Below the pieces are notes generated by a model that saw only the letters and a list, made by a program, of their open reading frames with translations, searched no databases and was not told where the DNA came from. Shown in pieces: positions 1,527-28,066 of a DNA stretch of 43,368 nucleotides. How positions within the stretch are numbered: the stretch's first letter is position 1; every line of letters starts with the position of its first letter. The stretch lies in the NCBI GenBank assembly GCA_012517115.1, contig JAAYVP010000313.1, positions 1 through 43,368 of the forward strand, read 5' to 3'. This DNA is from Brooklawnia sp. GTDB taxonomy: Bacteria > Actinomycetota > Actinomycetes > Propionibacteriales > Propionibacteriaceae. Position numbers and translations under genes: made by a program.

Positions 1527-2030
1527 GTGACCATCCATTCGAGCCATCCGTTCGCCGGAGCCGCGCACGAACCCGGACGCCGCTTCCGCGGCCGGTTGGG
1601 TGGACGCGTCAGTTTGTGGACGGCGGGGGTCGGCGTTAGACGGGCCGGGTTGACCGTGACCTCTCTGCTCGCGGTCGGTGGGGACCCTTGGCGGCTGGTG
1701 GCGGCGCTCGACCCAGACGCCGAACTCACCGAAGAGTTGATCGGCACCGGACGCGCGGTGGTGACTCTGCTGACTTCGGGACAGCTGCGATTGGCGGAGG
1801 GGTTCGGCGGCGGGCCCGCGCCCGGTGGGGCATTCCGGATCGGCGACTGGGTGGACACGCAATGGGGTCCGCGTCCGACCGAGGCGGCCACCTGGGCCGG
1901 CCTCGAACTGGAGTCGCGGGCGACGATGGGCTGGTCACTGCTGGTCACCTGTCGGCTGACCCAGGTCGAGATCGCAGACGACGAGCCGTCTCCACTGCTG
2001 CACTATCGCGGCCGCTACTCGTCGAACTGA
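1527..2030 (+). CDS. flavin reductase-like (FMN-binding split barrel) family protein
   Basis: VSLWTAGVGVRRAGLTVTSLLAVGGDPWRLVAALDPDAEL... GRAVVTLL ... PLLHYRGRY pattern of flavin reductase-like domains. Confidence 0.65.
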   Translation: MTIHSSHPFAGAAHEPGRRFRGRLGGRVSLWTAGVGVRRAGLTVTSLLAVGGDPWRLVAALDPDAELTEELIGTGRAVVTLLTSGQLRLAEGFGGGPAPGGAFRIGDWVDTQWGPRPTEAATWAGLELESRATMGWSLLVTCRLTQVEIADDEPSPLLHYRGRYSSN

Positions 2031-2141
2031 TCCACGCGAATGATCGGCGCCTTCGCGGGGCTCTGTGGCAGACGACGGCCGCGGCTCAGTAGACGGTCCC
2101 GGTAGCCGGACGTGGGGCCCGGCCTTGTACTCTTGGGTCCG

Positions 2142-2717
2142 ATGGACAGCGAGATTTTTGCCTCCGAGCGCAATCACCACCTGCGGTTCCGGCTCATTTA
2201 CCGCATTCTGCTGGGCATTCTCCTGCTTGGCGCAGCGGTCCTGCTGGTCTGGGCCGCGTTCTCGGTTAGTGCCCGGTCCGGCTGGGTAGTGAGCATCGGT
2301 TTCGCGGTCATCACCGCCTTAGTGCTGGCGATGGCTTGGCGGATGGATCGTGCACATCCCGACTTGCTGGCCACCACCGGCCCCTGGTCGCATGGGCAGG
2401 TCTATTCCGGTTCGCAGGCGAATGAGATCTGGAACTCGATGGGCAAGGTGGTCGTCCGGCACCAGATGGGTTTTCGGCGTCTCACCCAGACCACCGCGAT
2501 GGCGGACCGTCCAGGCAGCTTCCTGTATCGCAAGGGTGTGCACCTGATCGACGTCCGCGATTCCGAGGACCATCCCGGCTGGACGGTGGTATCGGTCTTC
2601 GCCACCCCCGATCTACCCACCACCATGACCGACTTCGGACGTGGCAGTGGTATCAACAACGAACTGCTGTCGGCGGTGCCGGGGCACCGCCGTCCGGGTG
2701 ACCCCGACCTTGGCTGA
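2142..2717 (+). CDS. hypothetical membrane protein
   Basis: ORF with two N-terminal hydrophobic segments; start ATG 2142 chosen over the earlier in-frame start. Confidence 0.6.
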   Translation: MDSEIFASERNHHLRFRLIYRILLGILLLGAAVLLVWAAFSVSARSGWVVSIGFAVITALVLAMAWRMDRAHPDLLATTGPWSHGQVYSGSQANEIWNSMGKVVVRHQMGFRRLTQTTAMADRPGSFLYRKGVHLIDVRDSEDHPGWTVVSVFATPDLPTTMTDFGRGSGINNELLSAVPGHRRPGDPDLG

Positions 2718-2758
2718 CCAATTTCTGCCCCGGACGCGGAGTGCGACAGGATGATGAC

Positions 2759-4216
2759 ATGACTGCTGAGCTGCTGGCGGGCCGCTACGAACTGGTTTCG
2801 CCTGTCGGCAAGGGCGCCACCGGCCAGGTTTGGCGGGGCCTCGACACCTTGCTGGAGCGTCAGGTGGCGATCAAGCTGGTCGACTTCGAAGGGGCGCGCG
2901 ACCCTGCGATGGCCGAACGGTTCCGTCGCGAAGGCATCGCGATCGCTGGTGTGCGACACGACGCCATCGTCCAGATCTTCGATACCGGCGCGGACGACCG
3001 GCGCGGCTGGCTGGTGATGGAGTACCTCAACGGCCCCAACCTCAACAAGATCGTACAGGACGCCGGACCCCTGACCTACGAGATCGGTATGCCGCTGCTC
3101 GCCAGGGTGGCTGATGGCCTGCAAGCAGCCCACGACGCAGGCGTCACCCATCGCGACGTCAAACCGGCGAATATCGTCCTGGACGCCGCACCCGATGCCG
3201 CTGGCACGCTCCCCGATCTGATCGCGCATCCCGAACTCGGCCGCCCGGTGCTGGTCGACTTCGGCATCGCCCGGCTGGTGGACCAGGCTGGGACGCAGTT
3301 GACACGTCCGGCCACGGCTATCGGCACCGCGGCCTACATGTCGCCCGAGCAGGCTCGTGGCCTGGCGACCGGGCCCGCCTCCGACGTCTACTCGCTGGCG
3401 TGCGTCGCGTACCACACCTTCCTCGGCCGCCCGCCGTTCACCGCAACCAGTTCGGTGGCGGTGGCGCACGCCCAGGCCTACGACACCCCCGTCCCGCTGG
3501 CCGAACTCAGCCCCGACATCCCACCAGCCCTGAACAGCCTGGTCTCGCGGATGCTGCTGAAGGACGCCGGGCAGCGGCCGAGCGCCCACGAAGTGGCAGC
3601 CGAGTTGCGGGCCATCGCCAATGATCCTGGGATGGCCCCGACGGCCATGCTTGCCGGGCTGCCACCCCAGGCGCTGCCTCCAGAGGCTGCCACCGCAGTG
3701 CTGGTTCCGCAGGCTGCCGTCGCACCCACGGCAACCTTGGCCGAGGGTATGGACGTAGTCGCACCGGTCGCCGCTGCGGCCACGACCGGCCAGCCTTATC
3801 CGGCGCTCACACCGGTCGAAGAGGACACCGAGAAGCGGGCTTCCGGTGGTGGCTTCCACAATGCGGGACGCTGGTTGGTCGGGTTGCTGGTGCTGGGTCT
3901 GGTGGCTGCCCTGGTCTACACGTGGACGGCACGGGCATCCGACCCGCGACCGGCGCCCACCGTGACCATGTTCACCACCGCCCCCCAGACCACGGCGTCC
4001 CAGACCACCACCCAGGCGACGCACAGCACGGCCACACAGCCGACCACCACGGCTCCGACGACTTCAGCCGCCACCCAGACCACGGCGCCACCGGCCACCA
4101 CCAGCCAGCCCACCGAGGCACCCACGACCGCGGCCCCAACCACCACCGAGGCGCCAGCCACCACTGCGCCACCCGCCACGACGGAGCCTCCTGCGGGCGG
4201 CAGCCCGGCGCGCTGA
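2759..4216 (+). CDS. serine/threonine protein kinase with single TM and Thr/Pro-rich extracytoplasmic tail
   Basis: GRYELVSPVGKGATGQVW glycine loop, VAIKLVD, THRDVKPANIVL catalytic loop, DFGIARL, GTAAYMSPEQARG; TM WLVGLLVLGLVAALVYTW then T/P/A-rich tail; no PASTA repeats. Confidence 0.95.
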   Translation: MTAELLAGRYELVSPVGKGATGQVWRGLDTLLERQVAIKLVDFEGARDPAMAERFRREGIAIAGVRHDAIVQIFDTGADDRRGWLVMEYLNGPNLNKIVQDAGPLTYEIGMPLLARVADGLQAAHDAGVTHRDVKPANIVLDAAPDAAGTLPDLIAHPELGRPVLVDFGIARLVDQAGTQLTRPATAIGTAAYMSPEQARGLATGPASDVYSLACVAYHTFLGRPPFTATSSVAVAHAQAYDTPVPLAELSPDIPPALNSLVSRMLLKDAGQRPSAHEVAAELRAIANDPGMAPTAMLAGLPPQALPPEAATAVLVPQAAVAPTATLAEGMDVVAPVAAAATTGQPYPALTPVEEDTEKRASGGGFHNAGRWLVGLLVLGLVAALVYTWTARASDPRPAPTVTMFTTAPQTTASQTTTQATHSTATQPTTTAPTTSAATQTTAPPATTSQPTEAPTTAAPTTTEAPATTAPPATTEPPAGGSPAR

Positions 4217-11999: not shown

Positions 12000-12133
12000 C
12001 CTTCCACCTGGTCAACCTAATACCGGGGCCTACCCGTCCTCAATCGTCGCAGATCGAGCCACTGTCCAAAACCCGGGGCCCAAGATTCGCCTGAGCGACT
12101 CGCCTGTCCGGTGCCTGTGCCAAGGTGGGATCC

Positions 12134-12775
12134 GTGCACCTCAAAGTACTTGACCATCCATTGGTGGCTCACAAGCTAACCCACCTGCGCAACGTGAAAA
12201 CCGACAGCCCGACCTTCAGAGCGTTGGTGGACGAGTTGGTCACCCTGCTGGCCTACGAGGCAACCCGAGGTGTGCGGGTGACACCGGTGCGCATCACCAC
12301 TCCGGTCGCCGAGACCGAAGGCGTCGAGTTGGCAGACCCCAAGCCCTTGGTGGTCCCCATCCTGCGTGCCGGGCTGGGCATGCTGGGTGGCATGACCCGC
12401 CTCATGCCGACGGCGGAGGTCGGCTTCGTAGGCATGATCCGAGATGAGCAGACGCTGCAGCCCTTCACCTACGCCGAACGGTTGCCGCAAGATCTGTCGG
12501 GACGGCAGTGTTTCGTCCTTGATCCCATGCTGGCCACCGGAGGGTCACTGGGCGGCTGCGTGCGGTTCCTAGCTGACCGCAAAGCCGACGATGTCACCTG
12601 CGTCTGCCTGCTGGCTGCCCCCGAAGGCATTGAGCGCTTCCGCATGCTGGTTGACGAGCTTCAGATCTCGACCACCTTGGTGGTGGCTGCGGTCGATGAG
12701 CGACTCAACGAGCTCGGTTACATCGTGCCTGGTCTCGGCGATGCGGGCGACCGGCTCTACGGCGTAGTCGACTGA
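12134..12775 (+). CDS. upp: uracil phosphoribosyltransferase
   Basis: [66 protein letters not shown] start inferred. Confidence 0.95.
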
Positions 12776-13857
12776 GTCTGGTCGAGAGCCTCCATCTCAG
12801 CATCCAGCTGTTCCGCCACGGGCGCATCGATTGCCTCTTCGGCCTTGGCCCCCGCTGACTGGACAGCAGACTCGCCGTCGGTCTCGGATGTCCAGGCCTG
12901 CGCGCTGCGCGGATTAAACGGGTCTGTGAACGCGCTTTGTGGGCTGCCGAGGGTCGCCAGCATCTGCCGCACGTTCGCCAACTGAGCGGTGATCGAGTCA
13001 CGGCGTGCCGTGGCGGCCGCCAGTTCACGTTCCGAGTTCTGCCTGATCCCCTCGGCACGCCGCTTGGCCTCTGAAAGCAGTGTGGACGCCTCCGCCTGGG
13101 CGTCGCGCACGATCTGATCGGCCTGTGCGCGGGATTCGGTGGTCACCCGCTCCGCCTCGCCGCGGGCCTCGACCAGTTCCTGGGTGGCCAAGTCGATCTC
13201 CTGGGTCTTCTTAGCCAGCGTCTCGTTCAACTCGTTCATCGCGGCGGTTCGCCGCTCGGCGAGCGCCCGCTCGAAGTCGGCGGCCGCCTGGGCGGCCCGT
13301 GCGCGCTGCCCCTCATAAAGCGCCTCGGCCTCCTCGCGGCGGGCCGTCGCCTCGGCTTCGGCCTCCTCGCGCAGCTGATCGGCTTGCTGTTTGGCATCCT
13401 TGATGGTGCGGGCGGCTACAGCCTGAGCTCGCAAGATCGTCTCAGCCGCCTCACGCTCGGAGTTCAACGCAGTGTCGGCGGCCAGCTGCTGGGCCTCGGC
13501 CGTCAGACGTTCGTACTCAGTGCTCGCGTTCTCACGTAAGTGGTCAGCCTCCTGCTGGGCGAGTGTGAGCATCTGGCCGATGCGTTCACCCAGGTCGGCG
13601 TAAGAGAGCGGCACACCGTGGTCTTGTTCGGCTCGCGCCTCGGCCAGCGCCTGTTCGAGCATCTCGATCCGACCTGTGAGGTCACCAGCCTGCTGACGTT
13701 GCTTGGTGATCTCCACCGACTGTCTGGCGTTGTCTTCACGGGCGCGGGCGAGATCGGTCTGGAGCTGCTCGACCGTTGACCGAAGCTGGTGCACCCGCTG
13801 GTCGACCTCGGCGGGCTCGTAGCCCCTTCGCACCAGGCGGAACTGGCTCTCGGTCAT
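12757..13857 (-). CDS. DivIVA-domain coiled-coil protein
   Basis: N-terminal [22 protein letters not shown] (DivIVA-like) followed by long Ala/Glu/Arg-rich coiled coil. Confidence 0.8.
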
Positions 13858-14171
13858 CGTTGATCTCCTCGGGTATCGCTGTCGTTGTCGGCTGGTTGGG
13901 GATCTGGGTCCGGATCATCGACGCTGAGAATCGGCACCGCGAGCGCTTCGATGACGCCCGACAAGTTCCCCAGTTCGTTGGCGATGCTATCGCGTTGGCT
14001 GGCCTGCAGGGCAACCTCGCTGCGGGCCAGCTCCAGCATCGTTTGGGCGTCGGCGCGAATTCGGTCGGCATCACGGCGCATCTGGTCGGCGAAGTTCTGT
14101 GCAACCTCAAGGATCTGCGAGGCACGCCGACCGAGATCATCCTCGTGCAGAATTATGTCGCTGGCGGCCAT
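13854..14171 (-). CDS. DivIVA-associated coiled-coil small protein
   Basis: MAASDIILHEDDLGRRASQILEVAQNFADQMRRDADRIRADAQTMLELARSEVALQ; 4-bp ATGA overlap with the DivIVA-domain gene. Confidence 0.6.
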   Translation of the reverse strand: MAASDIILHEDDLGRRASQILEVAQNFADQMRRDADRIRADAQTMLELARSEVALQASQRDSIANELGNLSGVIEALAVPILSVDDPDPDPQPADNDSDTRGDQR

Positions 14172-14258
14172 GATCCAATCCTCCCATCCACTCGGCGGGC
14201 ACCCGCCGGGGGTATGGATCTCGGGGGGAAAGAACTCCCGCCACCCTAGGCAACCCAC

Positions 14259-14280
14259 GATCAGCAGTACCAGGGGGAAC
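14259..14280 (+). repeat. Motif C, distal copy (att-like; resembles menB 3' end)
   Basis: GATCAGCAGTACCAGGGGGAAC vs GATCAGTAATACCAGGGGAAAC at 17488-17509 (19/22 identical). Confidence 0.65.
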
Positions 14281-14327
14281 ATCGGCATGGGTGACGGTGG
14301 GTGTTGATCGTTGTTGGCATGTGCTGC

Positions 14328-14342
14328 CTGACCTGCGCAAAC
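14328..14342 (+). repeat. Motif A, left copy
   Basis: CTGACCTGCGCAAAC vs CTGACCTGCGAAAAC at 17467-17481 (14/15). Confidence 0.6.
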
Positions 14343-14385
14343 GTCGTTGACGTTGCCGGTGCTAGATGGTCGCTCTGTGTCGTCC

Positions 14386-14406
14386 TGCCACATTCTTGCC
14401 ACATCT
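14386..14406 (+). repeat. Motif B, left copy (internally repeated TTGCCACA-like unit)
   Basis: TGCCACATTCTTGCCACATCT vs TGCCACACTCCTGCCACACAT at 17429-17449; each contains two TGCCACA units 11 bp apart. Confidence 0.65.
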
Positions 14407-14609
14407 CCGAGGCTGCTCAGGAGCCGAACCGGGATGGCGTGGTCGATCGGGAGCCCTCAGGCCACCAGCCCGTCGTGGATTCCGTCGAGGTGGCCGCTGA
14501 TGCTGTCACTCTGGTCGTGGAACACGAGACCGACGATGTAGAACGGCGAGTGTTTCTCGTCCGGCCCGAAGTCATCTGACTCGTCGATGAAGATGCTGAG
14601 TTCTCGCAC
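14403..14609 (-). pseudogene. DUF3800-like protein, N-terminal relic with in-frame TGA
   Basis: VRELSIFIDESDDFGPDEKHSPFYIVGLVFHDQSDSISGHLDGIHDGLVA*GLPIDHAIPVRLLSSLGD; similarity continues in the same frame past the stop, then ends at the motif B repeat. Confidence 0.55.
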
Positions 14610-14757
14610 GACCTGCTCCAGAAACAACTTCAGGCGGGCGATGCCCGGCTTGAAGGATGTGGCGAAGGTAGCTCCGCAAAAAGGGTGGACCATGACCCGA
14701 AGGTCAGCCCAGTGAAACAAATCAAGCACGCGGGTTAGGCACGTCGGAGGCCAACAC

Positions 14758-15248
14758 CTACACCCCTGGCGGAGGGTAGTCAGCCGTCATGCCCGCTTCG
14801 ACCAGGTTGGGATGAACGCCCGCCCCTTCGAGCGCAGCCAGCCGCGCCGAGATGTCTCGTCGTCCTGCTCCGGGCCCAAGCCCGCTCTCGATCGCGCGGG
14901 CCAGGACGGCCGCCTCACCCCCGTGGTTTCGTGCGTGCCGCAGGTGCCCAGCGGCCTCAGCGTAGGCCGCTGGGGCCGTCCCGTAGCCGTCGCCTCCGGC
15001 ACCGTTCTCGGCTGCATCCCTGCAGCAGAAAACCAACTCAAGGTGGCTGACCAGTTCCGCGCCCTTGAACTTGCCGGGCAAGGGGAACTTGGTGGTCGAG
15101 AGGAACCCGGGTACAGCCAGGTGTATTGCTCGATGAGGCGCGCGAGCACTTCGTCCTGCGGCTCGCTCCACCACGCGCGGATGTGTTGGTTCTCCGCGTG
15201 CGAAGCCGGCGCGGTCCACAGATACGAGGTGTTGTCAGGTGCCGTCAC
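14758..15248 (-). CDS. Unrecognised third gene of the Nmad operon, with an internal -1 frame change (programmed frameshift or disrupted gene)
   Basis: GTG start at 15248 overlapping the Nmad3 end; MTAPDNTSYLWTAPASHAENQHIRAWWSEPQDEVLARLIEQYTWLYPG in one frame, continuing FLSTTKFPLPGKFKGAELVSHLELVFCCRDAAENG...MTADYPPPGV in the -1 frame; both parts have coding-like GC3. Confidence 0.55.
15105..15111 (-). other. Slippery-type heptamer C_CCG_GGT at the frame junction
   Basis: X_XXY_YYZ pattern in phase with the upstream frame; slipping -1 gives the downstream coding frame. Confidence 0.4.
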
Positions 15249-16122
15249 GCCCAACCTCCACATCGAGGTCTCCAGCCGTTCGCGCGGCATCCAGCAAGCC
15301 ACGAAACCAACCGAACGCTTCTGGGTAGTAGGCGGTGTCAAGAACGAACTCCTGGCCACGGGCAACGCTCTTCAGACGGACCCGGTCGCCATCGACGTTC
15401 CAGCGGTCCGGCTTGTCGTGGAACCCAAGTGCCGGTCGGGTGCCGCCGGGAGCGAACCATCTTGGCAGGTCCCAGACGGACCTACTGCCGCCGACCATCG
15501 TCAGTCGAAGTCGGTCATCGTAGTGGTCGAAGACACCCGCACCGGGCAGGTCGAGGTCGACTCCATCGAGGGTGAGCTTGTCGCATGCGGTGTAGACGGT
15601 GTTGCCGCGTCCACGTGGGCTTGCGATATGGGGGTGGTACTTCATCCAGGCGGGGTGCTCGACACTACCGACCGGGACGACTTCGTCGATCTGCATCCAT
15701 CCCCAGATCACGTGCAGGTCAGGCGCGCCTGGCACGTAACGCAGTCGCCCTCCAGATGATGTCGCCCGCCGGAACCAGCCGAAGAAGAGGAACAGGTCGC
15801 CGGGACCGACCCCTTCTCGTGTCAGGACGGATTGCGCGGCGTCGACCTGACCGAAGAGCGGCCGCCAGCTCGGTTCGCGGGGATAGGCAGACTCGATCAG
15901 GTCGGGGTCGAGGTGCGCGAAGTGGTCAGCTCGCGTCCGGCCGTTGGTCAGTTCGACCGCGACACTGCCGAGGTTCTGGCCTGCGATGGTGATGTCTTGG
16001 TAGCGGATCGGTGACTGCTTGTCCGGGATCGGCATCGGGATCATCGAGCCGTCGTCCAGGATGGGGTTGGCGACCTTGCCCGCGCTTGCGTCGAATGCCT
16101 TGCGGCTCAGGATCAGCTTCAC
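15235..16122 (-). CDS. Nmad3-like (nucleotide modification associated domain 3) protein
   Basis: MKLILSRKAFDASAGKVANPILDDGSMIPMPIPDKQSPIRYQDI...HLDPDL...GVGPGDLFLFFGWFRR...HVIWGWMQIDEV matches remembered Nmad3 pattern. Confidence 0.75.
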   Translation of the reverse strand: MKLILSRKAFDASAGKVANPILDDGSMIPMPIPDKQSPIRYQDITIAGQNLGSVAVELTNGRTRADHFAHLDPDLIESAYPREPSWRPLFGQVDAAQSVLTREGVGPGDLFLFFGWFRRATSSGGRLRYVPGAPDLHVIWGWMQIDEVVPVGSVEHPAWMKYHPHIASPRGRGNTVYTACDKLTLDGVDLDLPGAGVFDHYDDRLRLTMVGGSRSVWDLPRWFAPGGTRPALGFHDKPDRWNVDGDRVRLKSVARGQEFVLDTAYYPEAFGWFRGLLDAARTAGDLDVEVGRDGT

Positions 16123-17036
16123 GTCTCACGCCAACTCTGGTCGCCCGTCTTCCACTGCGTCGGCGCATCCAGGACGCCGCCGGGGAGGTCTGCGAACCAT
16201 CGGGCGACGGTATCAATCTGGTCGGTGCTGAAGTTGGAGCGGTGGCCACGGCCAACGGCAAGGAACTGGAGTTCGTCGGGCAACGCTGGCCCGCTTCGCC
16301 CCCAGTAGGTGAAGCGATCGCAGACGAGCACGTGGTTGCCGCCCAAGTCAGTCCATTTGGTACCGGAGTCCTCCGACCCGTCGGATCTGGAGTGGGACGA
16401 GGGTAACTGGCGGAAGCCGCCATCGACGGGCTGGTAGATGTTGTCGCCTACGCGATGGACGATCTGGGGCGAGGTCATGACCGGCCGCCGTTCCTGATAC
16501 TGCGGATTGGTCCAGTACTGCTCGAATCCGATCACGTCGGCGACCTGCGCTGCATATACGACATGTTCGCTGCGGCTCGACAGCCCGACGATAATGTCGC
16601 CAACGTTCGCGACCCGGCGAATCCGCGGCTTGCAGCAGGCGAGCGTCAGGACTCCGCGGAAAGGGTGCGGCGAGAAGCCTGTGTCGTGAACCACGACGTA
16701 GGAGAAGACTCGGTTCGTCTGGACCGGATCGCCAACCTCCCACGTCCGCCCCCGCCTCGGCACGAACGACACGGTGACGCCGTCAGGGCCGGGTGCTTCC
16801 CGGTGAGGGGCTTCGCGGTTCAGGGTGGCGACCGGCTCGTCATCCCATCGCGGTCCGCATGACACTGACGCCGCCGGGGTGATTCGGCGCGCAAGGGTAG
16901 GCGACGCGACTACCTCACTCGCTGTCCCTCGGGTCCACGAATGACCACAGCGCTCGCAGGTGATCTGATGACGACCGTCGCCGAGCCCGACTCCACGCAG
17001 CTCCACATCCTCGCCGCAATTGGAGCAGTCGATCAT
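16119..17036 (-). CDS. Nmad2-like (nucleotide modification associated domain 2) protein with N-terminal zinc ribbon
   Basis: VFSYVVVHDTGFSPHPFRGVLTLACCKPRIRRVANVGDIIVGLSSRSEHVVYAAQVADVIGFEQYWTNPQYQERRPV...GDNIYQP; N-terminal CSNC...CERC; 4-bp overlap with the next gene. Confidence 0.75.
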   Translation of the reverse strand: MIDCSNCGEDVELRGVGLGDGRHQITCERCGHSWTRGTASEVVASPTLARRITPAASVSCGPRWDDEPVATLNREAPHREAPGPDGVTVSFVPRRGRTWEVGDPVQTNRVFSYVVVHDTGFSPHPFRGVLTLACCKPRIRRVANVGDIIVGLSSRSEHVVYAAQVADVIGFEQYWTNPQYQERRPVMTSPQIVHRVGDNIYQPVDGGFRQLPSSHSRSDGSEDSGTKWTDLGGNHVLVCDRFTYWGRSGPALPDELQFLAVGRGHRSNFSTDQIDTVARWFADLPGGVLDAPTQWKTGDQSWRET

Positions 17037-17182
17037 TGGTCACCTCCCTCGGTCTGCTCACCATGACAACGGTATCGAGATGCGCCGAGCCGACAGGACT
17101 CTGGAAAGCCCCCGGATCACTGGTCGTTGCTGGCTGTTCAACTTTCTGGTCTGACACGCCTCAGAGTCGCTCTCAGACCCTG

Positions 17183-17449
17183 TCAAAGCGTCGGCGCATG
17201 CATGCTACGAGAATTCGTAGACGGTCCGCCCCTCCTGGGCGGGCCGAGGGCGTCGGCCCAGGCGCGCCGGTCCCAAATCTCCCGGTTGATCCACGCCGCC
17301 TGCACCGGCTCCACCGTGACGGGCTCAGCGGGGTCGCGGTAGCACAGGCCGCCGTGGTGGGCACGCTCGCTGGCACCGGGCAACTGGTCGTGGTCGAGGG
17401 GGCAGCCGGGGAAGTCAACCGAACTCCTTGCCACACTCCTGCCACACAT
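17183..17449 (-). CDS. small ORF or coding remnant at the island edge
   Basis: VDFPGCPLDHDQLPGASERAHHGGLCYRDPAEPVTVEPVQAAWINREIWDRRAWADALG has strong GC3 bias; no recognised family; begins inside motif B. Confidence 0.35.
   Translation of the reverse strand: MCGRSVARSSVDFPGCPLDHDQLPGASERAHHGGLCYRDPAEPVTVEPVQAAWINREIWDRRAWADALGPPRRGGPSTNSRSMHAPTL
17429..17449 (+). repeat. Motif B, right copy
   Basis: TGCCACACTCCTGCCACACAT. Confidence 0.65.
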
Positions 17450-17466
17450 GGCGACCTAAACCATCG

Positions 17467-17481
17467 CTGACCTGCGAAAAC
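17467..17481 (+). repeat. Motif A, right copy
   Basis: CTGACCTGCGAAAAC. Confidence 0.6.
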
Positions 17482-17487
17482 ACGCCA

Positions 17488-17509
17488 GATCAGTAATACC
17501 AGGGGAAAC
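17488..17509 (+). repeat. Motif C, menB copy (att-like; contains menB stop codon)
   Basis: GATCAGTAATACCAGGGGAAAC; reverse complement encodes ...FPWYY-stop of MenB. Confidence 0.65.
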
Positions 17510-18413
17510 TCGACCAGTCAGGCTCCCGCTTGGCCAGGAAGGCGTCCCTTCCCTCCGCGGCCTCGTCGGTCATGTAGGCAAGGCGAGTCGCCTCACCGGC
17601 GAACAACTGTTGCCCCAGCAGACCGTCGTCGGGCAGGTTGAAGGCGTACTTCAGCATTCGGATCGCTGTCGGTGACTTGCCGCAGATCTTGCGGCCCCAC
17701 TCCAGTCCCGCGTCCTCAAGCAGCGCGTGCGGGACGACCTTGTTGACCATGCCCATCCGTAGCGCGTCCTGCGCCGAGTAGGTGTCGCCGAGGAAGAAGA
17801 TCTCACGGGCGAACTTCTGGCCGACCTGCCGAGCCAGGTATGCCGACCCGTAGCCGCCGTCGAAGGATGCGACGTCGGCGTCGGTCTGCTTGAACCGGGC
17901 GTGCTCGGCCGAGGCGATCGACAGGTCACTGACGACGTGCAGGCTGTGCCCGCCGCCCGCCGCCCAACCACTGACCAGGCAGATCACCACCTTGGGCATG
18001 AACCGGATCAATCGCTGTGCCTCCAGGATGTGGAGCCGTCCAGCTCGCGCCCGGTCAACGGTGGACGCGTCCTCGCCGCCGGCATACTGGTAGCCGGACT
18101 TGCCCCGGACGCGCTGGTCACCGCCGCTGCAGAAGGCCCAGCCACCGTCCCGGGGGCTGGGGCCGTTGCCGGTGAGCAGCACGCAGCCGATATCCGGCGA
18201 CTGCCGGGCGTGCTCGAGAGCGAGCAGCAACTCGTCCACGGTGTGCGGCCGGAAGGCGTTGCGCACCTCCGAGCGGTTGAACGCGATCCGCACCACTCCC
18301 GGGCTCCCGGCTCGCTGGCCAGCACGGTGGTAGGTGATGTCGGTGAACTCGAAGCCAGGCTCCTCGTCCCAAAGTTCGGGGCGGAAAGGATTAGTGGATG
18401 CGTCGCTGCTCAT
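17490..18413 (-). CDS. menB: 1,4-dihydroxy-2-naphthoyl-CoA synthase
   Basis: Crotonase fold, FCSGGDQRVRGKSGYQ, GWAAGGGHSLHVVSDLSIAS, QTDADVASFDGGYGSAYLARQVG; start MSSDAST. Confidence 0.96.
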   Translation of the reverse strand: MSSDASTNPFRPELWDEEPGFEFTDITYHRAGQRAGSPGVVRIAFNRSEVRNAFRPHTVDELLLALEHARQSPDIGCVLLTGNGPSPRDGGWAFCSGGDQRVRGKSGYQYAGGEDASTVDRARAGRLHILEAQRLIRFMPKVVICLVSGWAAGGGHSLHVVSDLSIASAEHARFKQTDADVASFDGGYGSAYLARQVGQKFAREIFFLGDTYSAQDALRMGMVNKVVPHALLEDAGLEWGRKICGKSPTAIRMLKYAFNLPDDGLLGQQLFAGEATRLAYMTDEAAEGRDAFLAKREPDWSSFPWYY

Positions 18414-18475
18414 AGGTTCCAAGGTAGCGGCCGGCTCGTGCCAGGTGGCGTCGCCGCTAGCTGGCCAGCCGCGCG

Positions 18476-19072
18476 CTACCGCCTTGTCGCCTGTCCGGCG
18501 GCCCGCGCCAGCGCCGAGTCGCTGCCTTCGATGGCTGCGAAGACGATCGCTGTCAGGTGGCTGGTTGCCCACGCGAGCAGCAACGCGACCCCCAACACAG
18601 AGGCGACCGTCTCGGGGACGCCGAAGACCTGTTCCAGCCAGGACGGCGCCGCTGGGCCGGTGTCACCGAAGTCGTACAAGACCAGCGCAGCCAGCAAGTG
18701 GGCTGCGTAAGAAACCAGCATCAGGATGGAAGAAACCGGGCCGCCGGCCGCTGGTCGTACCTTCTCGGCGCGGACGGTTACCAGGATCGCCAGAACGATC
18801 TGCGGGAGACCAAAGGCGACGAGTCCGAAGAACATGTAAGAGACGGTGATCCAACCCGCGACACCGGTCCCGAAGCGGATCACCACGAACAGCACCGGAA
18901 CCAGCAGGCCCAGCCACGCGAACCAGACTGCGGTCCTTTGCAACGGCGACGCCGGTAACGTCCATTTGGGTGTCTTGGCCTGCCCCCACCGGTTCTGCGG
19001 CGGGCGGGGTTGGCTTGGCCAGTGCCCAGACGGTGGGTGTGGGGGCTGACTCACCGAGCCATGGTGCCACAT
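18476..19072 (-). CDS. hypothetical membrane protein
   Basis: Pro-rich N-terminus and four hydrophobic segments; start uncertain (ATG 19072 or GTG 19054). Confidence 0.6.
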   Translation of the reverse strand: MWHHGSVSQPPHPPSGHWPSQPRPPQNRWGQAKTPKWTLPASPLQRTAVWFAWLGLLVPVLFVVIRFGTGVAGWITVSYMFFGLVAFGLPQIVLAILVTVRAEKVRPAAGGPVSSILMLVSYAAHLLAALVLYDFGDTGPAAPSWLEQVFGVPETVASVLGVALLLAWATSHLTAIVFAAIEGSDSALARAAGQATRR

Positions 19073-19185
19073 GGTCCGCGGCGGACGACAGTCAAAGCCG
19101 CATCGCAATAGGGCGCGGACCCGCAGGCCTACCGTCCCGCGAGCAGGTAGCCTAAGTCCTCAGCCGTCGCCGATGGGAGGTTCGG

Positions 19186-20040
19186 ATGCGTCGCTGTGCT
19201 GTGATCGGCAACCCGATCGCCCATTCACTGTCACCCCTGCTGCACCGCACCGCCTACGCGCAGCTCGGGATTGCCGACGAGTTCCGCTATGACGCCTTCG
19301 AAGTGACACCCGAGACGCTGCCGGGTTTCTTGGCCGGCCTTGGGGACGAGTGGGTGGGCCTGAGCGTCACCGCACCCAACAAGCAGGCCCTGCTCGACCA
19401 CGGCGAACCAGACCCAGTCGCTGCCGCACTGCGTGCCGGCAATACCTTGATCCTGGGCCGCGGCGGCAAACCCAACCGCATCTACAACACCGATGTGACC
19501 GGCCTGCTGGCTGCGCTTGACCGCGCCGGGGTTAACCGAGCGTCCACCGCCATTCTGCTAGGCAACGGGGCCACCGCCCGCAGCGCGCTATGGGCGGCCG
19601 GACGCCTAGGGGTTCGCGAAGTAGTGGTTTGCGCCCGGGACGCCGCGCGGGCGCTGGCGAGTCTGGCCGACATCGCCACCCGGGCTGAAGTCGAGTTGGC
19701 GGTGCAGCCTTTCGGACGCCCACCCGAGCTACCTGCGGCGTGGGGTGGACAGGCAGACCTTCTCATTTCCACAGTTCCGGTCAGACTCCCACCGGAACTG
19801 GCGTCAGCGCTGGTCAAGCTGGCGTCCACGGTCTTCGATGTGGTCTACAACTTTTACCCGTCTCAGCTCGACAAGGCGGCCGCTGAGGCGGGAGTCGCCT
19901 TGCTGGACGGCCTCGACCTACTGGTTAGTCAAGGGGTCGACCAGATCCGCCTGATGACTGGACGCGACGCTGATCCGGCACCGTTGCTGACGGTCTGCCG
20001 AGCCGAGGTGCTGCGGCGGACATCTGGAAAGGAGTTCTGA
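19186..20040 (+). CDS. aroE: shikimate dehydrogenase
   Basis: AVIGNPIAHSLSPLLHRTAYAQLGI, GLSVTAPNKQALL, YNTDVTGLLAAL, LLGNGATARSALWA. Confidence 0.93.
   Translation: MRRCAVIGNPIAHSLSPLLHRTAYAQLGIADEFRYDAFEVTPETLPGFLAGLGDEWVGLSVTAPNKQALLDHGEPDPVAAALRAGNTLILGRGGKPNRIYNTDVTGLLAALDRAGVNRASTAILLGNGATARSALWAAGRLGVREVVVCARDAARALASLADIATRAEVELAVQPFGRPPELPAAWGGQADLLISTVPVRLPPELASALVKLASTVFDVVYNFYPSQLDKAAAEAGVALLDGLDLLVSQGVDQIRLMTGRDADPAPLLTVCRAEVLRRTSGKEF

Positions 20041-24559: not shown

Positions 24560-28066
<3,507 letters not shown>

Follow-up and report, generated by a model that had tools for sequence, protein, structure and literature searches.

How did a 3.2-kb segment come to lie between the vitamin-K-synthesis gene menB and the genes that normally follow it in a Brooklawnia genome, and can it still move? 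The window analysed here is the whole 43,368-nucleotide stretch of contig JAAYVP010000313.1, and the segment in question occupies positions 14259-17509 (Table 1). A first-pass annotation had read its two ends as attL and attR of a tyrosine-recombinase element inserted at the menB 3' end, on the strength of three repeated motifs and in spite of an interior devoid of recombinase genes.

Attachment site anatomy at the menB 3' end

Re-reading the sequence confirms the motif pairs C, A and B at the two ends, in the same orientation and in mirrored order, with 19/22, 14/15 and 17/21 identical positions, respectively. Each copy of B contains two TGCCACA sites in direct repeat at 11-bp spacing (TGCCACA-N4-TGCCACA). 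Motif C occurs twice in the window, and its right copy coincides, as had been proposed, with the last menB codons and stop (17490-17492, minus strand). Exact A and exact paired B are each confined to the two element ends within the whole 2.88-Mb assembly. The window cores are mismatched at 2/18 positions, which is unusual for att cores. The lack of a recombinase gene also holds: domain searches of the ORFs in 14259-17509 turned up neither a recombinase nor a relaxase, and no RNA families were detected in 12000-19500.

Table 1. Coordinates of the element, its cargo and the host flanks in the window
Feature	Position	Strand	Remarks
upp, host flank	12125..12775	+	synteny in 6/6 congeners
DivIVA-domain host gene, flank	12757..13857	-	
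Small coiled-coil host gene	13854..14171	-	flank; directly after menB in most congeners
Core C', distal att core	14259..14280	-	2 mismatches vs menB core within 18 bp
Motif A'	14328..14342	-	starts 66 bp ahead of distal core, class-typical spacing
Motif B', distal paired predicted arm sites	14386..14406	-	
DUF3800-like fragment	14457..14729	-	~first 39 of 149 profile positions; E=0.0036, under Pfam cut-off
153-aa open frame	14758..15219	-	no family; coding status uncertain
Cargo gene 2, Nmad3 (PF18754)	15235..16122	-	295 aa; E=5e-78; 4-bp overlap with gene 1
Cargo gene 1, Nmad2 (PF18753)	16119..17036	-	305 aa, N-terminal zinc-ribbon-like segment; E=1.3e-63
Motif B, paired GTGGCA-type predicted arm sites	17429..17449	-	11-bp period
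Motif A	17467..17481	-	GTTTNCGCAGGTCAG; 8 bp past menB stop; common to both arm classes
Core C, menB-proximal att core	17488..17509	-	CCCCTGGTAYTAYTGA; final menB codons + stop; core also in 32/397 genomes
menB, host target gene	17490..18410	-	ends ...FPWYY-stop; Pfam ECH_1; 82-86% identical in congeners

Close relatives supply the empty site. All six congeneric genomes examined (6/6) carry an insert-free menB site, with menB, coiled-coil/divIVA and upp in conserved order, and the gap between the menB stop and the following gene measures about 60-460 bp in these congeners versus 3.3 kb in the window. G613 differs in that menB is directly followed by divIVA, with no coiled-coil gene detected. 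Nmad2 and Nmad3 are absent from the menB-upp stretches of the six congeners. The C-terminal codons of menB read YYY in congeners versus WYY in the window, so that the exact crossover point is not placeable, and an attempt to position it from the core mismatches failed. The flanking coiled-coil gene encodes only 105 aa in the window, against an open frame of roughly 480 aa or more in congeners. Its halves correspond to the two ends of the longer gene, with about 370 aa missing between them.

Could the segment simply be vertically inherited host genes that happen to lie between chance repeats? The short length of the repeats speaks for this, and nothing else does. The empty-site alleles of the six congeners refute it, the same anatomy recurs at menB in many genomes, and the chance test was negative: 300 Markov-random pairs of 160x160 bp yielded no 22-mer match with three or fewer mismatches and no 15-mer match with one or fewer. 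A purely vertical origin can be given almost no credence.

Integrases and arm classes at menB

The arrangement is not peculiar to the window. Of 397 genomes from the order, 32 have the junction formed by the menB end, 8 bp and motif A, as does a Marmoricola MAG, and a distal second core preceded by A' was recognized in 17 genomes when up to 40 kb downstream of menB was retrieved. An A-B pattern searched without the core gave nine matches in the 397 genomes, 9/9 at menB; A and B are therefore part of a menB insertion system and not the dispersed repeats whose discovery would have spoken against the original proposal. A search for these repeats at menB with an adjacent integrase found integrase-bearing elements with the same anatomy. 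An intact tyrosine integrase lies just within the menB junction and points at it in G256, G176, G679, G560, G564, G566 and G727, and truncated integrases occur in related elements of G483, G713, G166, G536, G606 and G532. A contig of G755 begins at the menB junction, has TGTGGCA-type arms resembling those of the window and terminates in an integrase that shares 82% identity with the G727 enzyme; its assignment is to the same genus, although with 8% contamination a foreign origin is possible. In G502, another member of the Propionibacteriaceae, a related integrase directly follows a menB with the YYY core variant. These elements, together with the empty sites, support the attL/attR interpretation and make the menB 3' end a recurrent tyrosine-integrase target in Propionibacteriales.

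The elements fall into two arm classes, with GTGGCA or GTCCGC pairs, that have core and motif A in common. The spacing from A' to the distal core is 65-68 bp with GTGGCA arms and 75-76 bp with GTCCGC arms. Integrases of different classes share 27-35% identity over their first ~55 residues versus 56-72% over the remaining domains; within a class the N-terminal and remaining parts are conserved to a similar degree. By sequence comparison, then, the integrase N-terminal domain tracks the arm motif. Since the divergent part of the integrase covaries with the divergent arm motif, the GTGGCA and GTCCGC pairs are probably arm sites, and the common core would be read by the shared integrase domains. 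The earlier model, in which C was the core and both A and B were arm-type sites, thus survives for the B pairs. It does not for A as a class-specific arm site, because A occurs in elements of two different arm classes; A is better described as a second conserved att motif. Two integrase lineages that share core and A and differ in N-terminal domain and arm sites constitute a natural experiment on arm-site specificity.

One integrase-bearing GTGGCA-class relative is the G727 element (21.3 kb), which carries genes for a TrwC relaxase and a 79-aa HTH excisionase-like (HTH_17) protein beside the integrase, and is a candidate helper. It also has an apparent copper/heavy-metal cargo, judged by eye from a P-type ATPase and a metal-binding domain (L196/L221). 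At the same site in G045 (L124/L125), a 23.7-kb GTCCGC-class element is followed by a GTGGCA-class junction at reversed-region position 24588. The Marmoricola MAG (L045) has at 1735-3640 a GTCCGC-class junction, a Fic-like gene (by eye) and a short menB-integrase remnant, and this stretch is probably another decayed element.

Phages, too, typically use tyrosine integrases that act on core and arm sites, which raises the question of a prophage remnant instead of a mobilizable-element derivative. The segment contains no convincing PHROG match and no family of known phage function, the phage integrase that comes closest shares just ~30% identity, and the exact core-A junction is present in no viral contig; the GTGGCA-class, integrase-bearing G727 element carries a relaxase. 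A phage ancestry is accordingly very improbable. A plasmid origin of the integrase was also considered and rejected, as no plasmid integrase exceeded 60% identity.

The ends, the empty sites, the integrase-bearing relatives at the same site and the conservation of ends among elements all point the same way at the sequence level: 14259-17509 is very probably a small cis-mobilizable (CIME-type) element, integrated at the menB 3' end by a tyrosine integrase specific for menB and belonging to the GTGGCA arm class. Enzymes of this sort are encoded by integrative mobilizable elements in relatives, such as that of G727. Integration would proceed by recombination of an attP core with the last menB codons, keeping menB intact and duplicating the core at the distal end. 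The B pairs would act as integrase arm sites and A as a further conserved att motif. The cargo is an intact Nmad2-Nmad3 operon of putative function, accompanied by probable gene debris.

A two-gene cargo

The Nmad2 and Nmad3 reading frames are intact in the window, and the DUF3800-like fragment is probably the remnant of a truncated cargo gene. The same Nmad2-Nmad3 unit, in the same gene order, is found in two other genomes, G628 and G696; the G628 proteins are 62-64% identical to the window pair. Nmad3 is present in only 3/397 genomes. It was found in no phage records or viral contigs, and plasmids gave two distant matches of 42% identity. In G628 (L246, G628:C22) the unit lies away from menB; next to it are genes for a nucleotidyltransferase-like protein and its small partner, which together resemble a HEPN/MNT toxin-antitoxin pair.

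The operon is most likely a putative anti-phage or nucleotide-modification module. A published list of predicted, untested defence genes includes NMAD domains (PMC13092281), and PADLOC returned no known anti-phage system for the window cargo; because the listing is one of predictions only and the PADLOC match is lacking, a defence role is a guess, if one with moderate support. No solved structures match the cargo proteins by sequence, and structure predictions for Nmad2 and Nmad3 (mean pLDDT 42 and 46) were left out of the argument.

Integrase-less elements and their counterparts among known systems

Small size is a recurrent property of GTGGCA-class elements. Among complete elements, 8/11 of the GTGGCA class versus 0/7 of the GTCCGC class measure 1.3-3.6 kb (Fisher p=0.004, indicative only as the genomes are related), with class assigned from the distal ends: two of the eight small GTGGCA elements, that of G574 and the second unit of G743, have no clear menB-proximal arm pair. 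None of the eight has an intact integrase. G483 retains a C-terminal fragment, and the menB-integrase profile found none in the others. Typable cargo consists of toxin-antitoxin genes (PIN/Phd in G304, AbiEi/AbiEii in G737 with homologues in G743, ParE/antitoxin in G518 and G574) or, in the window, of Nmad2-Nmad3. The ends are alike, with a mean identity of 82-87% between elements (73-75% for the window versus the others), and the interiors beside them and the host flanks are at about the shuffled level, 61%. Such well-preserved ends around interiors that have been swapped are what one would expect of units undergoing recombination now or in the recent past. Most cargo blocks shared by small elements are 75-90% identical versus 82-92% for menB, and so not clearly above menB between species. 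Elements also stack in tandem at menB in G743, as well as in G737 and G045, where the arm classes are mixed. The G743 array (L203; region positions 941, 4551 and 6919) comprises two consecutive small units with no integrase detected, each of which ends in a full distal att half; another A-like motif comes after them.

Did these elements lose their integrase in place, or was it supplied by another element? In the former case a full mobilizable element would have inserted by means of its own integrase, and internal deletions would later have removed the integrase along with the transfer genes; only the att ends and part of the cargo would be left, and the element would now be immobile. The six truncated integrases of related elements, the DUF3800-like fragment left in the window and the divergence of the window cores are what such decay might leave behind. 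Independent decay, however, would be expected to erode the ends and leave more backbone, and it sits uneasily with equally small elements in many genomes, with well-kept ends and unrelated interiors, and with the integrase-less tandem units of G743. Decay in place is plausible, at rather less than an even chance. Because of the conserved ends, the swapped cargo and the tandem units in which no integrase was detected, we lean slightly toward supply in trans. A broader proposal, to be held tentatively and just short of evenly balanced, is that the menB mini-islands form a class of integrase-less cassettes, in each of which ~240 bp of conserved attP-type ends enclose a single exchangeable module for toxin-antitoxin or defence functions. 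Resident mobilizable elements would supply the menB-specific integrases that move these cassettes in trans, and the cassettes would stack in tandem at menB. Such minimal elements offer a direct test set for trans mobilisation of toxin-antitoxin and defence genes.

A helper integrase resident in this MAG was sought and not found: the assembly, though only ~92% complete and in 446 contigs, yielded no menB-type integrase, the best match having 29% identity (E=2e-12). Given this and the two core mismatches, the window copy may be stuck unless a helper enters.

How does the element compare with known systems? An empty attB in 6/6 congeners and a cognate integrase at menB in relatives place it among tyrosine-integrase islands. 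The segment gave no convincing match to the structural, packaging or regulatory genes of a prophage or phage satellite, and it lacks the integrase and mobilization gene (relaxase) that an integrative mobilizable element would carry; the window element matches the G727 element in core, motif A, arm sites and spacing, but differs in having neither integrase, excisionase nor relaxase. Integron cassettes are likewise small recombinase-less units, often with toxin-antitoxin cargo and possibly moved in trans. The menB elements, however, have a two-ended attP with arm sites in place of a single attC hairpin, and lack an integron integrase. No earlier report of menB as an attachment site was found in the open-access literature, weak evidence in itself.

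The closest counterpart is the CIME, a cis-mobilizable element that has lost its integration and transfer genes and kept attL and attR (PMC5704250). In the window, core, A and B are present at both ends, the ORFs between them include no integration or conjugation genes, and the att anatomy is that of the G727 element with its integrase and relaxase. Like CIMEs, the element abuts a conserved gene at its 3' end, in a site shared with integrase-bearing elements, and has relatives in tandem arrays. The menB elements differ from CIMEs in their attachment site, the menB 3' end, in their length of only 1.3-3.6 kb and in their recurrence across many species, where the ends are conserved and the cargo is exchanged.
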